From Aquirufa ecclesiirivi (GTDB lineage Bacteria > Bacteroidota > Bacteroidia > Cytophagales > Spirosomataceae): DNA of 64,000 bases. Position 1 is the stretch's first letter. Each line of letters starts with the position of its first letter. Of this stretch, positions 19,948-24,261 are shown in pieces. Where the stretch lies: NCBI RefSeq assembly GCF_011250515.1, contig NZ_JAANOP010000009.1, forward strand, positions 1-64,000. Reading direction: 5' to 3'. The notes beneath the pieces were generated by a model. It searched no databases, had not been told where the DNA came from, and was given only the letters and a program-made list of their open reading frames with translations. Position numbers and translations under genes: made by a program.

Positions 19948-20463
19948 ATGCAGATTAAACCGAACTCCGTTGTATTCATTTCTTACCAATTATCCTTCCC
20001 AAATGAAGAAGGTGAGCCAGAAGTGGTAGAAATTGTCGACGAAAATGAACCTATGGTATTCATCCATGGATTAAGTGGATTGCCTGAGGCTTTTGAAAAT
20101 AATTTAAATGGCCTTTCCGTAAACGATACCTTTGATTTTACCATTCAGGCGGAAGACGCTTATGGTGTCGTTGACCCAAATGCTATTATAGAATTACCGA
20201 AATCCATCTTTCAAATTGAAGGCCAAGATACCAGTGATATGTTGAAAGTTGGGAACTTCATCCCCATGACGGACGACCAAGGAAACCGCATGCAAGGTAT
20301 GGTGGTACAAGTAGGTACTGAAAATATTACCATGGATTTCAATCATCCATTGGCAGAAAAGGACTTAATGTTTAGTGGAAAAGTAATTAAAGTGAGAGAA
20401 GCTACTGCTGAAGAAATTGCTCATGGCCATGTTCATGGTGAAGGTGGGGTTCATCATCATTAA
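19948..20463 (+). CDS. SlyD-like FKBP-type peptidyl-prolyl isomerase
   Basis: A 171-residue cytoplasmic protein of the SlyD group. The FKBP core is split by an insert-in-flap chaperone domain. Visible segments are VFISYQLSF, MVFIHGLSGLPEAFENNLNGL, FTIQAEDAYGVVDPNAI and MDFNHPLAEKDLMFSGKVIKV. The C-terminus is histidine-rich (HGHVHGEGGVHHH), as in metal-binding SlyD proteins, so nickel or zinc binding is plausible. A possible -7 element (TAGGTTTG, 19923-19930) lies 17 nt before the ATG without a clear -33. The gene ends next to the third 7-bp repeat hairpin. Confidence 0.9.
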   Translation: MQIKPNSVVFISYQLSFPNEEGEPEVVEIVDENEPMVFIHGLSGLPEAFENNLNGLSVNDTFDFTIQAEDAYGVVDPNAIIELPKSIFQIEGQDTSDMLKVGNFIPMTDDQGNRMQGMVVQVGTENITMDFNHPLAEKDLMFSGKVIKVREATAEEIAHGHVHGEGGVHHH

Positions 20464-20468
20464 TTAAA

Positions 20469-20566
20469 AATGAAGAATGTAGAATTAAGAATTAAGAATT
20501 TTTATAGTTCCCAAAATTCATTCTACATTCTTCATTCTTCATTCTTCATTCTACATTCTACATTCT
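20469..20566. repeat. Inverted 7-bp repeats between convergent genes; likely bidirectional terminator
   Basis: The left arm (20469-20485) reads AATGAAG AATGTAG AAT and is followed by two AATTAAG units. The right arm (20520-20566) is a heptamer array of ATTCTAC and ATTCTTC. A perfect 17-bp stem can form between 20469-20485 and 20520-20536 with a 34-nt loop. The stop codon of the dCMP deaminase (CTA on the + strand, 20565-20567) lies in the last heptamer. The heptamer is the same as at 171-272 and 5194-5313. Confidence 0.85.
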
Positions 20567-21032
20567 ATTGCAACTCCATTTCAGCATAAGCCATCACTTC
20601 TACGCCAAATTTGCGTAAAAAGTCTACACCTTCATCGGAAGGAAGTCCTTTATAGGCAGCATAAGAATTTAGGTAGATTACTCGCTTAATTTTCATGCTA
20701 TAAATGATTCTGGCGCAGGAAATACAAGGGGATAGGGTCACATAAATCGTTGAACCTTCCACATCAGCACCATTTTTGGAGGCATACAAAATCGCATTTT
20801 GTTCAGCGTGTAAAGCCAGAGAACAAGAACCCTTGGAATCTCTTGGGCAACCCACTTCACCAAATTCATCATCGCAGTTGTGAGTACCAGCAGGTGGACC
20901 ATTATAACCTATGGATATAATTCGAGTTTCTTTGGTGAGAACACAACCTACTTGGGCTCGGGTACAATGCGATCTCAAAGCTAGGTTTTGAGCTAATTCC
21001 ATGAAAATCGCATCGAATGGTGGTTTATTCAT
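20565..21032 (-). CDS. Deoxycytidylate (dCMP) deaminase family protein
   Basis: A 155-residue zinc deaminase. The zinc and proton-shuttle motif LHAEQNAI (His-Ala-Glu) and the second zinc motif SPCISCA (P-C-x-x-C) are intact. IGYNGPPAGTHNCDDE is the substrate-loop pattern of dCMP deaminases, which make dUMP for thymidylate synthesis. The extra cysteines in GEVGCPRDSKGSC also fit. The ATG at 21032 gives the family's usual N-terminus; the in-frame ATG at 21068 adds 12 unlikely residues. The region upstream is the hairpin-rich repeat block rather than a recognisable promoter. Confidence 0.92.
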   Translation of the reverse strand: MNKPPFDAIFMELAQNLALRSHCTRAQVGCVLTKETRIISIGYNGPPAGTHNCDDEFGEVGCPRDSKGSCSLALHAEQNAILYASKNGADVEGSTIYVTLSPCISCARIIYSMKIKRVIYLNSYAAYKGLPSDEGVDFLRKFGVEVMAYAEMELQ

Positions 21033-21158
21033 AAAGGCTAAAGAATCGGTGAAGCAAATTGACCACAAATATCCAATTAATTTTTCATTTGAATAGTAGT
21101 GGGCCTACTTTATATATTTTCTGTTAATATATCAAATTAGGGGATTTTCCATTTAAAA

Positions 21159-21237
21159 GTGCCTTCGAGGGAATCAGGCAATTAAGGCATTTCAACGAAA
21201 TTAAGGTTTCAAATGTGCCTTCGAGAGCCTCAGGCAC
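21159..21237. repeat. Two hairpin units outside the long direct repeats
   Basis: At 21215-21237 there is a perfect unit: 5-bp arms GTGCC/GGCAC around a 13-nt core TTCGAGAGCCTCA. At 21159-21181 there is a decayed copy with the same arms and core TTCGAGGGAATCA. Both are in the same orientation as the first unit of the 240-bp repeats that follow. Confidence 0.9.
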
Positions 21238-21270
21238 CAGTAGCACCACTAAATGTCTAAGATCATGCAA

Positions 21271-21510
21271 GTGCCTTCGAGAGCCTCAGGCACCTTTGGT
21301 ATATAGCTGGTAACTGAGGTTCTTGAATTTAACTAAAGTACTCGAAGGTGGCTGAGGCTCTTGAAGCCACCGCATGAAAAAAAAATTTATCCCGAATTCT
21401 CAATAGTTATCCGAGACTATTTAGGTTTGAAAAGCGCCCTTCCAAAGATGCCTTCGAGAGCCTCAGGCACCTTTGGTATATAGCTGGTAACTGAGGTTCT
21501 CGAAGCCACC
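21271..21510. repeat. 240-bp direct repeat, left copy
   Basis: This copy is about 97% identical to 21888-22127 (eight mismatches counted by eye, no gaps). It contains alternating hairpin units. Forward units with arms GTGCC/GGCAC are at 21271-21293 and (TGCC/GGCA) 21449-21469. Reverse units with arms GGTGGC/GCCACC or similar are at 21347-21371 and 21486-21510. A decayed reverse unit is at 21309-21333. No gene is visible in it. Confidence 0.95.
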
Positions 21511-21593
21511 TTGCAACTAATTGATAATTTTAATCTCGAGCAAAAACAAAAAATCCATTTTATTAATTTTCCAATAAACCTAACCGAATTAAC

Positions 21594-21881
21594 ATGAATG
21601 GATACATGTATATTTTAAAATGTTGTGATGACAGCTTTTATTGTGGTAGCACAATTAACCTTCTAAAAAGAGTCAAACAACACCAAAAGGGTAAAGGTGC
21701 GAATCACACAAAAAATAGGTTACCAATCACCTTAGTTTATTTTGAAATTTTCCCAAGTATTTATTTGGCATTTCAGCGTGAAAAACAAATTCAAAAATGG
21801 AGAAGAGACAAAAAAGAAGCACTCATTAAAGGAGAGACAAACATACTACCTGAACTAGCAATTGCATTTCGGGATATATAA
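21594..21881 (+). CDS. GIY-YIG nuclease domain protein (YhbQ-like)
   Basis: A 95-residue single-domain GIY-YIG protein. The two signature strands are present as Y4-M-Y6-I-L and Y16-C-G18-S-T. R26 and H30 lie on the first helix, E63 in QREKQIQKW is the expected metal ligand, and a K-K-E-A-L-I tail follows. All expected catalytic positions look intact. The gene lies between two 240-bp direct repeats, 83 bp after the left copy and 6 bp before the right one. A link between the nuclease and the repeats is therefore likely, similar in logic to RAYT-REP pairs (inference). The cellular target is unknown. Confidence 0.9.
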   Translation: MNGYMYILKCCDDSFYCGSTINLLKRVKQHQKGKGANHTKNRLPITLVYFEIFPSIYLAFQREKQIQKWRRDKKEALIKGETNILPELAIAFRDI

Positions 21882-21887
21882 CAACAG

Positions 21888-22127
21888 GTGCCTTCGAGAG
21901 CCTCAGGCACCTTTGGTATATAGCTGGTAACTGAGGTTCTTGAATTTAACTAAAGTACTCGAAGGTGACTGAGGCTCTCGAAGCCACCGCATGAAAAAAA
22001 AATTTATCCCGAATTCTCAATAGTTATCCGAGTCTATTTAGGTTTGAAAAGCGCCCTTCCAAAGATGCCTTCGAGAGCCTCAGGCACCTTTGGTATATAG
22101 TTGGTGGCTGAAGTTCTCAAAGCCACC
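21888..22127. repeat. 240-bp direct repeat, right copy
   Basis: Second copy of the repeat at 21271-21510, starting 6 bp after the GIY-YIG stop codon. Units are at 21888-21910 (forward), 21926-21950 (decayed reverse), 21964-21988 (reverse), 22066-22086 (forward) and 22103-22127 (reverse, arms GGTGGC/GCCACC). It ends 3 nt before the T-run of the tRNA-Met terminator. Confidence 0.95.
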
Positions 22128-22129
22128 AC

Positions 22130-22162
22130 AAATAAAAAAAGACAAATCTTTCGACTTGTCTT
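22130..22162 (-). terminator. Rho-independent terminator of tRNA-Met
   Basis: On the minus strand a 10-bp stem (AAGACAAGTC/GATTTGTCTT, one G-T pair) is closed by a GAAA tetraloop and followed by seven Ts. It starts 8 nt after the tRNA 3' end. Confidence 0.93.
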
Positions 22163-22170
22163 TCTAATTG

Positions 22171-22244
22171 TAGCGGGGAGCAGAATCGAACTGCCGACCT
22201 TTGGGTTATGAATCCAACGCTCTAACCATCTGAGCTACCCCGCC
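22171..22244 (-). tRNA. tRNA-Met (anticodon CAT)
   Basis: The 74-nt gene has acceptor arms GGCGGGG/CCCCGCT, a D arm with GCTC...GAGC, an anticodon loop TTCATAA on stem TTGGA/CCCAA, and a T arm containing CAGTTCGATTCTG. CCA is not encoded. The acceptor begins with a G-T pair rather than the unpaired start of an initiator, so the elongator is most likely. A CAT-anticodon isoleucine tRNA cannot be excluded from sequence alone. Confidence 0.95.
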
Positions 22245-22255
22245 AAATTGCGTTG

Positions 22256-22287
22256 CAAAGGTAGCAGAAAGCGATTAGAGTCACAAA
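22256..22287 (-). promoter_or_regulatory. Promoter of tRNA-Met
   Basis: On the minus strand TTTG (22287-22284), a 20-nt spacer and TACCTTTG (22263-22256) fit the Bacteroidota consensus. Transcription would start a few bases before the tRNA 5' end at 22244. Confidence 0.8.
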
Positions 22288-22320
22288 TAATTTCTTAATA
22301 TTGATTAATTTTGTGGCAGA

Positions 22321-22351
22321 TTTGGGATTTAGCTTAGAAATAATACCTTTG
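22321..22351 (+). promoter_or_regulatory. Promoter of the START-like/LptF-G operon
   Basis: TTTG at 22321-22324, a 19-nt spacer and TACCTTTG at 22344-22351 match the -33/-7 consensus exactly. Transcription should start near 22358, before both candidate start codons (22380 and 22407). The element is back to back with the tRNA-Met promoter. Confidence 0.8.
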
Positions 22352-22379
22352 CTAATAGCGGGTTAGAATCACGTGTGTC

Positions 22380-22799
22380 ATGCCTAATCCATTAATAGAT
22401 AAAAATATGCCAGCAAACAATTTTGAGTTTGAATACGAGGTAAAAGCCTCACCAAAAGTACTTTACACTTATTTAAGTACCGCTTCAGGACTTCAACAGT
22501 GGTTTGCAGATAAAGTCACGGTTCCCAATGCGAGCACCTTTCACTTTTACTGGGATGACGAAAATCATCCTGCCGTATTAGTTCAAAGTAAATTAAATAA
22601 ATTTGTTCGATTCGAGTTTTTAAATCCCAAAGATGAAAGTTCCAAAGGGTTTATCGAACTCAAGTTGGAGGTTAGTGAACTTTCCAATACCACCTATTTA
22701 AAAGTGACCGATCGTGCATCAACTTTTAAATCAGACGATGATGCTGCCGAACTTTGGGATTATCTTTGCGATAAATTAAAAGAAATCGTCGGGAGCTAA
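22380..22799 (+). CDS. START-like (SRPBCC/AHSA1-type) domain protein
   Basis: A 139-residue single-domain protein of the SRPBCC ligand-binding fold. The opening FEFEYEVKASPKVLYTYLSTASGLQQWFADKV is the standard beta-helix-beta pattern, and the last helix is DDAAELWDYLCDKLKEIV. The ligand is unknown. An in-frame ATG at 22407 would give a 130-residue protein closer to typical relatives; both starts follow the promoter at 22321-22351. The LptF/G-type permease gene begins 1 nt after the stop, so the two are cotranscribed. Confidence 0.85.
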   Translation: MPNPLIDKNMPANNFEFEYEVKASPKVLYTYLSTASGLQQWFADKVTVPNASTFHFYWDDENHPAVLVQSKLNKFVRFEFLNPKDESSKGFIELKLEVSELSNTTYLKVTDRASTFKSDDDAAELWDYLCDKLKEIVGS

Positions 22800-22800
22800 T

Positions 22801-24261
22801 ATGCGTAAAATAGATAAACTAGTCCTCAATGCCTTTTGGGGGCCATTTGTTCTTACTTTTCTTATTGTCATTTTCATTTTCCTATTACGATTGGTCCTAT
22901 TTTACTTTGCCGATCTATTTGGAAAAGACCTAGGTGCGACCGTTTACGTCGAACTATTCTTCTATTTTTCCCTCATTACCGTTCCTCTGGCCATGCCATT
23001 GTCCATTTTGTTATCCTCGCTGATGACATTTGGAAAATTGGGTGAAAATTTTGAATTAACTGCCCTAAAAAGTGCTGGCATTTCCATTTTTCGCATTTTT
23101 ATACCCATTTTTGTTACTACTATTCTCATCAGTATCTTCATGTTTTGGTTTGTCAATGTAGCCCTCCCTTGGGCCAATTTGAAAGGGTGGAGCCTTTTAT
23201 ATGACATCAAAACCACTAAAACTACCCTAAATATCAAAGAAGGAATATTTTACAATGACCTTCCAGGTTATTCCATCAAGGTGGCTAAGAAATTCCCAGA
23301 CAATAAAACACTAAAGTCGCTCATCATCTATGACCACACTGGAAATGATGGAAACCGACATGTCACCGTGGCTGATTCCGCCCAGATGTACACTATTTTA
23401 GACAGAAAATACCTAATTTTTGAACTATTTAATGGCAAAGATTATATCGAAGATGCTGACAGAGGACCTGGAAATGATTTATCCGAACTAGCCGTTCATA
23501 GCTTTAAACGCAGTAAAATTGTGATGTCCTTATCTGGTTTTGATTTACAAAAAACGGAAGAAAATCAGTTTGCTCATCACCAAATCATGCGCAACAACAA
23601 TCAATTGGCAGATGATGCTGATTCTTTGTCGAGGAACATTAGCAATATGAAAAAAGGCTTTTCCTTGGCTTCAAGCGTATATTATGTCTATTTCCGTAAA
23701 CCTGTAGGCGCTTCACTAAGAAGCATGAATCACAATACCAAATGGATAGGGCCTAAAATCGCAGAAAAGACTAAAAATAGCAAAGATTATAGACCCATGG
23801 AGGAATTGGCCAAACAAGAAGTCCAAAATTTAATTGCTTTCGGACAAACCAATGAAGTCAACTTAGCCGAACGTGTCACCGAATTAAAAAAGACCGATTT
23901 GGAATGGCATCATAAATTCACCAATTCCTTGGCAGTATTGGTGATGTTTCTCATTGGCGCTCCCTTAGGGGCCATCATCAAAAAAGGCGGATTTGGTATC
24001 CCTGTTGTAGTAGCTGTATCCTTCTTTATTTTGATGTATATCCTAACCCAGCAAGGTGATAAAATGGCTAAGGAAGGGAAGGTGTTGGTTGAAATCGGAG
24101 CTTGGATCTCGAATGGCATTCTGGCACTGATTGGGGCTTATTTCTTGAACATCGCCTTAAAAGACTCCCGACTATTTGAATCTGACTTCTACAAAATCCT
24201 GTGGGATCGAATAAAAACCTATTGGGAGAATCGCAGGAACAAGATATCATCCAAAGCATAA
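22801..24261 (+). CDS. LptF/LptG family permease (YjgP/YjgQ)
   Basis: A 486-residue inner-membrane protein. Three hydrophobic helices are at about 15-120 and a periplasmic domain lies in the middle. Three further helices fill about 370-460 (WHHKFTNSLAVLVMFLIGAPLGAIIKKGG is the family's conserved region). LptF and LptG form the membrane part of the lipopolysaccharide export ABC transporter with LptB. Only one of the two genes is here, so F or G cannot be decided. It starts 1 nt after the START-like gene, and rpsO follows with its own promoter. Confidence 0.9.
   Translation: MRKIDKLVLNAFWGPFVLTFLIVIFIFLLRLVLFYFADLFGKDLGATVYVELFFYFSLITVPLAMPLSILLSSLMTFGKLGENFELTALKSAGISIFRIFIPIFVTTILISIFMFWFVNVALPWANLKGWSLLYDIKTTKTTLNIKEGIFYNDLPGYSIKVAKKFPDNKTLKSLIIYDHTGNDGNRHVTVADSAQMYTILDRKYLIFELFNGKDYIEDADRGPGNDLSELAVHSFKRSKIVMSLSGFDLQKTEENQFAHHQIMRNNNQLADDADSLSRNISNMKKGFSLASSVYYVYFRKPVGASLRSMNHNTKWIGPKIAEKTKNSKDYRPMEELAKQEVQNLIAFGQTNEVNLAERVTELKKTDLEWHHKFTNSLAVLVMFLIGAPLGAIIKKGGFGIPVVVAVSFFILMYILTQQGDKMAKEGKVLVEIGAWISNGILALIGAYFLNIALKDSRLFESDFYKILWDRIKTYWENRRNKISSKA

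Follow-up and report, generated by a model that had tools for sequence, protein, structure and literature searches.

Hairpin repeats beside UPF0213-like GIY-YIG nuclease genes in Bacteroidota and some other bacteria

A nuclease gene among hairpins in Aquirufa ecclesiirivi

Contig NZ_JAANOP010000009.1 of A. ecclesiirivi (GCF_011250515.1, genome of 3.1 Mb) carries a small GIY-YIG gene between two direct repeats that are themselves built of short hairpins. Do the gene and the hairpins belong together, and if so, what does the one do to the other? We analysed positions 1-64,000 of this contig, the 64-kb window to which the coordinates below refer. The left (21268..21510) and right (21885..22127) copies of the direct repeat, both in plus orientation, are 243 nt long and 96% identical, and their starts are 617 bp apart. 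The gene between them (21594..21881, plus strand), an open reading frame matching PF01541 (E 5.8e-18), encodes a UPF0213-like nuclease of 95 amino acids. Only two PF01541 genes were found in the whole genome, this one and a 603-aa frame, presumably UvrC by its size. The left neighbour of the locus (20565-21068, minus strand) is a gene that we take to be deaminase-like. The right neighbour is a tRNA (22171-22244, minus strand), the sole match above the gathering score in an Rfam scan of 20400-22900. Other known RNA families were rejected for this region: the matches to microRNA families (E 0.003-0.4) were far under the gathering scores. At 20462-20566, between the deaminase-like gene and a presumably FKBP-like gene, we observed an AT-rich inverted repeat that contains tandem units of 14 bp (ATTCTACATTCTTC); similar AT-rich stretches occur at the matching position in the relatives' loci L142, L144 and L145.

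In an alignment of 43 GIY-YIG rows, Y6, Y16, G18, R26 and E63 are invariant. We take Y6, Y16, R26 and E63 of the window's protein to be the catalytic Tyr, Tyr, Arg and Glu of the domain. The original prediction, 240-bp repeats (21271-21510 and 21888-22127, about 97% identical) around a 95-codon GIY-YIG gene with intact catalytic positions, is thus confirmed, with the repeat as measured above. The nearest solved structures are those of the UPF0213 proteins BH0048 and EF2693, followed by SLX1. At the sequence level, 1zg2 and 1ywl were matched with E 1.5e-21 and 3.7e-17, and the homing enzyme 1mk0 only marginally (E 0.71). Foldseek, run with the AlphaFold model (pLDDT 94.7), placed two UPF0213 structures on top (E 3.5e-6 and 1.1e-3, only the first being below 0.001) and SLX1 at ranks 3-10 (E 0.008-0.12), with TM-scores of 0.54-0.65 in the first ten. 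On these matches the protein is classed as UPF0213-like; in fold, SLX1 comes second. UPF0213 presumably corresponds to COG2827 and includes YhbQ; NCBIfam gave no family for the two nucleases tried. The likeness to UPF0213 covers the GIY-YIG domain with its conserved Tyr, Tyr, Arg and Glu as well as the sequence and fold matches to 1zg2 and 1ywl. However, the one housekeeping-like locus seen, yazA in an operon, comes from a plasmid record of B. subtilis and lacks such hairpins. SLX1, a eukaryotic enzyme with the partner SLX4, shares the GIY-YIG fold but is not known to be tied to repeats. It cuts branched DNA, and a hairpin substrate would therefore suit an SLX1-like fold.

Twelve hairpin units, four of them degenerate, were counted by reading the sequence of 21159-22127, in agreement with the original count of about twelve units of one family. 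On the plus strand, hairpins with arms GTGCC/GGCAC are located at 21215..21237 (core TTCGAGAGCCTCA), 21271..21293 and 21888..21910, and hairpins with arms ATGCC/GGCAC at 21448..21470 and 22065..22087, all found by core search and arm alignment; a degenerate unit GTGCC..GGC (repeat family D2) occupies 21159..21179. The minus strand carries hairpins with arms GGTGGC/GCCACC (21347..21371, by arm alignment), GGTGGC/GTTACC (21486..21510, by arm alignment) and GGTGGC/GTCACC (21964..21988, by core search and arm alignment), the last two as read on this strand. Comparison with the relatives' locus added degenerate cores with lost arms at 21315..21327 and 21932..21944 and, together with sequence reading, a degenerate hairpin GGTGGC..GCCACC at 22103..22127, all three on the minus strand. 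Most plus units thus have GTGCC/GGCAC arms and the minus units GGTGGC/GCCACC arms, a few with one or two mismatches. An alternating orientation as in BIMEs had been proposed. The orientations within the window are mixed, and the likeness to BIMEs and REPINs in arrays and inverted pairs stands.

The 13-nt core is not restricted to this locus. It was found in 42 places of the genome (24 forward, 18 reverse), whereas the reversed pattern was found in none, and a chance origin of the repetition is excluded. Four arm pairs surround the genomic cores: GGTGGC/GCCACC, GTTGGC/GCCAAC, GCTGGC/GCCAGC and GTGCC/GGCAC. The paired fraction of arm cells is 0.822 for the 74 distinct units from A. ecclesiirivi, compared with a mean of 0.749 and a maximum of 0.778 after shuffling of whole arms; for 26 units from four relatives it is 0.907 (shuffle mean 0.769, maximum 0.841). 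The arms therefore do covary around a fixed core, as had been claimed. When folded as DNA, three oligonucleotides of the window's core type are predicted to form a single stem that is interrupted by a TC bulge of two bases and has GAG/CTC at its top (z between -2.0 and -3.3). A hairpin with a long core also folded better than shuffled sequences (z -2.6), and two hairpins with five-base cores folded no better than theirs (z -0.8 and -1.1). A neighbouring inverted pair in the window is predicted to be able to fold into a single long hairpin (z -4.84), a behaviour attributed to REPINs. The hairpins of this genome are mostly intergenic; at other loci of the study, hairpins also lie inside coding frames, in several readings. 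None of eleven other hairpin stretches fetched from it contains a GIY-YIG gene, because the genome has only one small GIY-YIG gene; this is expected of dispersed repeats.

The hairpin accompanies the nuclease gene across bacteria

The pairing of the GIY-YIG gene with the hairpin is real and widespread. The first sample comprised 69 loci, mostly from Bacteroidota, obtained by scanning GTDB genomes with only the protein as query and chosen regardless of repeats. In 48 of the 69 loci the motif TTCGA-N3..6-CTCAG occurs no more than 500 bp from the gene; three control motifs do so in 0-1 of them. Most of the other 21 loci contain variants visible by eye, in which the inner stem is long or the core is TCGA..CTCGG. 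We then used a general form of the hairpin, arm-TCGA-N2..40-CTC-arm', in which the arms are complementary, and a set of 98 loci: the 69, and 29 of the 30 loci from a search of 148 genomes, the window's own locus (L090) being left out. At a stem of at least 4 bp, this hairpin was found within 300 bp of 89/98 GIY-YIG genes (12 control motif pairs: 0-7/98), the other nine having none; at a stem of at least 5 bp it was found at 64/98 (11 controls: 0-5/98). The density of hairpins with stems of at least 5 bp is 2.81/kb near the gene and 0.035/kb beyond 1.5 kb. Since the general form was drawn by eye from the same loci, this enrichment depends to some extent on how the hairpin was defined; however, we judge the gap to the control motifs to be far too large for that derivation to explain. 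As to control genes, a hairpin lies within 300 bp of one of 21 Y1 transposase loci outside the genus (stem 4 or 5) and of 0/12 long GIY-YIG loci (stem 5).

Several features of the sample bear on these counts. Loci L087 and L039, both on contigs of 104,550 nt, are probably one contig; without L087 the count is 88/97. Fifteen loci fused to HsdR (14 read, and L087) are all positive, and their exclusion leaves 74/83. Several Aquimarina loci among the 98 are close relatives of each other, and MAGs outside Bacteroidota may owe their taxon labels to contamination. Homologues from phages and plasmids all have less than 60% identity. In six plasmid or phage loci, the gene is flanked by hairpins in three, namely Sphingomonas L286 and Methylobacterium L287 and L290, the hairpins of the latter two having outer stems of 4 bp; flanking hairpins are absent in L288, L289 and L291. 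Truncated or broken GIY-YIG frames were observed in L070 and L071 (methanotrophic symbionts of Bathymodiolus), L076-L079 and L081, some of them still adjacent to hairpins. The proposed link between nuclease and hairpins is therefore strongly supported and broader than first seen, being present at 89/98 related loci, mostly in Bacteroidota. Neither a core confined to this locus nor homologues that never have such repeats were observed; within the A. ecclesiirivi genome, hairpin copies are unlinked to GIY-YIG genes in the weak sense of the eleven stretches.

The link is also seen at the level of genomes. Of the 24 genomes with a strong nuclease match, 13 have at least five hairpins of one sub-pattern, which misses other hairpin types; of the 58 without a match, 6 do (Fisher 5.6e-5). 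Here a strong match is one with E 1.2e-27 or better, a cut set after viewing the list; the A. ecclesiirivi genome is included and 66 genomes with weaker matches are excluded. Hairpins without the nuclease also occur. The single-contig genome G060 has 124 hairpins CTTCGAN4-5CTCAGG, and G184 has 28; neither has a small GIY-YIG gene above the cut-off. Among the five hairpin-rich genomes of the subclade, A. ecclesiirivi included, three lack the nuclease. Several hairpins of G060 form inverted pairs 44-53 bp apart, resembling orphan REPIN-like elements.

The hairpin core type (GNNC, CNNG, five-base or long) follows the nuclease tree. It requires 25 changes on the tree, compared with a mean of 38.8 and a minimum of 33 after shuffling, none of 300 shuffles being as low. 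The tree used here has 90 rows, with the HsdR clade as one row and without nine truncated or broken members and L112, which has a very long branch; it is built from few columns and has many open forks. Part of the signal could come from vertical inheritance of whole loci. The type of the closing pair (T-A or C-G) was also considered, and it did not fit the tree significantly (in 21 and 30 of the 300 shuffles the number of changes was equally low).

Occupied sites, empty sites and in-frame inserts

The orthologous site of the window was compared in five close relatives. It contains no hairpin in G005, hairpin arrays without the nuclease in G016 and G025, two hairpins without the nuclease in G018, and arrays with the nuclease in G021, where some arm letters differ yet still pair. 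Among these relatives there are thus unoccupied, hairpin-only and complete sites. Six other hairpin loci (P1-P6) were compared with the relatives' stretches. No hairpins were seen in those stretches at P1, P4 and P6, except for one unit in G016 (P6) and one match with other arms in G005 (P4). P3 has 16 units in A. ecclesiirivi and one in G025, P2 is common to all four relatives where the locus was found, and P5 was located in a single relative, which has one unit there. Because relatives are missing for some of these loci and some of the stretches are short, part of the absences may be artefacts.

At L052, the gene, about 30 bases 5' of it and the hairpin 3' of it are common to L051 and L058, and the outer flanks differ. 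L052 and L058 also share a 1.2-kb stretch at a different relative place, and therefore rearrangement rather than transposition is possible. A search for exact insertion junctions at other array loci yielded homology blocks, with no clean junction or target duplication. The nearest flanking hairpins of 50 loci having them on both sides are oriented ++ in 16, +- in 15, -+ in 13 and -- in 6 cases; thus they are not plain terminal inverted repeats. Direct repeats of at least 20 bp span the gene at 31/88 GIY-YIG loci and at 7/37 control loci, which is only a moderate excess. The nuclease gene itself is under purifying selection, dN being below dS in 9/9 gene pairs.

In 14 loci (L030, L032, L033, L037-L039, L043, L047, L048, L050, L055, L056, L062 and L066) the nuclease and its hairpins are inserted in frame into HsdR of EcoAI type (family assigned from L032), just before the DECH-box helicase motif. 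The hairpins are translated, for example as STSSPT and VPEPVEG. These loci form one clade in a 71-row tree, which suggests a single insertion. The insert is absent from the 14 readable loci of 24 related HsdR loci, which have a loop of about 5-27 residues or align without an insert; L114-L119, L123, L125, L129 and L134 were outside this reading. L123, the contig of G165 that bears the nuclease, has a frame of 999 aa; the other related HsdR frames have 554-843 aa. In L039, hairpin-coded peptides within HsdR are tandemly amplified in frame (VPELVDS repeats). In L023:4001-5164, the GIY-YIG domain is continuous, via hairpin-coded linkers, with a presumably nucleotidyltransferase-like protein (387 aa in all).

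A candidate mobile system and its alternatives

The hairpins resemble REP, BIME and REPIN elements with their RAYT transposases: they are short, dispersed and mostly intergenic, form arrays and inverted pairs, have covarying arms, flank an enzyme gene and occur also without the enzyme. However, the flanked enzyme here is a PF01541 GIY-YIG protein, whereas RAYT is a Y1 HUH transposase, and GIY-YIG cleavage is not known to leave a covalent protein-DNA intermediate. In the GIY-YIG pairing the repeats do not flank a Y1 gene, as they do in REP/RAYT systems, although one hairpin subfamily of the genus with GTTGGC arms lies near a RAYT-like gene. Finally, the conserved letters found here are TCGA and CTC, whereas REPs carry a GTAG or CGTC tetranucleotide tag (PMC3733652).

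We consider it probable that the locus is a two-part mobile system of a REP-like hairpin and its cognate, structure-selective nuclease of UPF0213 type, and the best account we infer is that the hairpins are spread by the nuclease. Composed of an arm, a TC bulge, an inner segment from GA to CTC and the complementary arm, the hairpin would be a DNA element that folds when single-stranded, and the adjacent protein would be the nuclease selective for this structure. It may cut the extruded hairpin near the conserved TC bulge, after which repair or replication restart might copy hairpin units. Such copying would create tandem arrays on site and new copies elsewhere, and would carry along a nuclease gene lying among hairpins. 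If the flanking direct repeats recombined, the gene would be lost, and hairpin-only loci such as those of the relatives would remain.

The hairpins could instead be a target, pre-existing and spread by something else, into which a selfish GIY-YIG gene of homing type inserts. Hairpins without the nuclease in G016, G018, G025, G060 and G184 fit this reading, as does the window's own locus, hairpin-only in three relatives; insertion sequences that target REPs are reported (PMC1525189). The gene resembles those of GIY-YIG homing endonucleases in being compact and probably selfish and, in one clade, an in-frame insert in a host protein, but here the repeats are dispersed hairpins and the gene of the window is free-standing; no intron or intein was seen in 20400-22900. 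On the other hand, the HsdR insert came with its hairpins, and the other readable HsdR copies lack it; the segment common to L052 and L058 includes a hairpin; and homing into foreign repeats does not predict that the core type tracks the nuclease tree. We regard this explanation as unlikely, though it is the strongest of the competitors.

It is more doubtful still that a RAYT-type Y1 transposase spreads the hairpins and the GIY-YIG gene is a mere neighbour. Outside the window, the same genome has two near-identical RAYT-like Y1 frames of 175 aa (L013:3793-4320 and L013:5959-6486, at about 75.9 and 78.1 kb of C36). An array of GTTGGC-arm hairpins lies about 120 bp downstream of the first, and in G016 and G025 a hairpin with such arms is located no more than about 200 bp from the copy of this gene. 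Counts of GTTGGC-type arms in the stretches fetched are 24 for A. ecclesiirivi, 19 for G016 and 5 for G025, all with the RAYT-like gene, and 2 for G018 and 0 for G021, where it was not found. This proximity means that two enzymes may act on related hairpins and that the nuclease is maybe not the only mobiliser. However, tblastn found the RAYT-like protein at none of the 98 loci of the GIY-YIG set, both hairpins and nuclease are present in G021, where this Y1 gene was not found, and the hairpin-rich G060 has no Y1 match. The first RAYT-like frame is surrounded, by eye, by its own, different palindrome (GTTCGACATG..CATGTCGAAC), and the single hairpin among the 21 Y1 loci outside the genus points the same way, although that control is imperfect, as most of those genes are IS200-like rather than RAYT-like. 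Least probable, and to us remote, is a reading in which the hairpins act as RNA (as terminators or processing sites) or belong to the generic elements of the host, and the nuclease limits their instability and does not spread them. Their mostly intergenic position and the good folding of several agree with this, and SLX1-like enzymes are repair nucleases. Yet the hairpins occur in both orientations and inside coding frames, the Rfam scan of 20400-22900 found only the tRNA above a gathering score, and a protective enzyme need not adjoin its hairpins.

With the nuclease as the probable agent of spread, a wider claim can be made, for and against which we see the case as evenly balanced. There may be a large, ancient class of mobile TCGA..CTC hairpin DNA in bacteria, replicated by hydrolytic GIY-YIG nucleases of the UPF0213 fold, convergent with REP/RAYT and enzymatically unrelated to it. 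The enzyme would recognise the inner segment and the bulge, whereas the arms would be free to drift as long as they pair. The original prediction knew of no described system with this pairing, and none was found in the titles and abstract beginnings of the open-literature papers covered, a search that lay outside most subscription journals and all bioRxiv preprints. The hairpin motif strings do not occur in the literature searched, GIY-YIG is not mentioned in the available parts of open REP and RAYT papers, and the main text of the RepRanger paper, as far as available, mentions neither GIY-YIG nor RAYT. As far as this search goes, and provisionally, the pairing is undescribed.

If the proposed system is real, the short dispersed repeats of Bacteroidota and some other bacteria would have a cognate enzyme. 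Part of the nuclease family would also gain a role; the only solved structures close to this family are two entries from structural genomics. A 95-residue protein and short oligonucleotides would be enough to test the idea directly. Hydrolytic cutting would then be a second, independent way to spread hairpin DNA, beside the covalent chemistry of tyrosine transposases.
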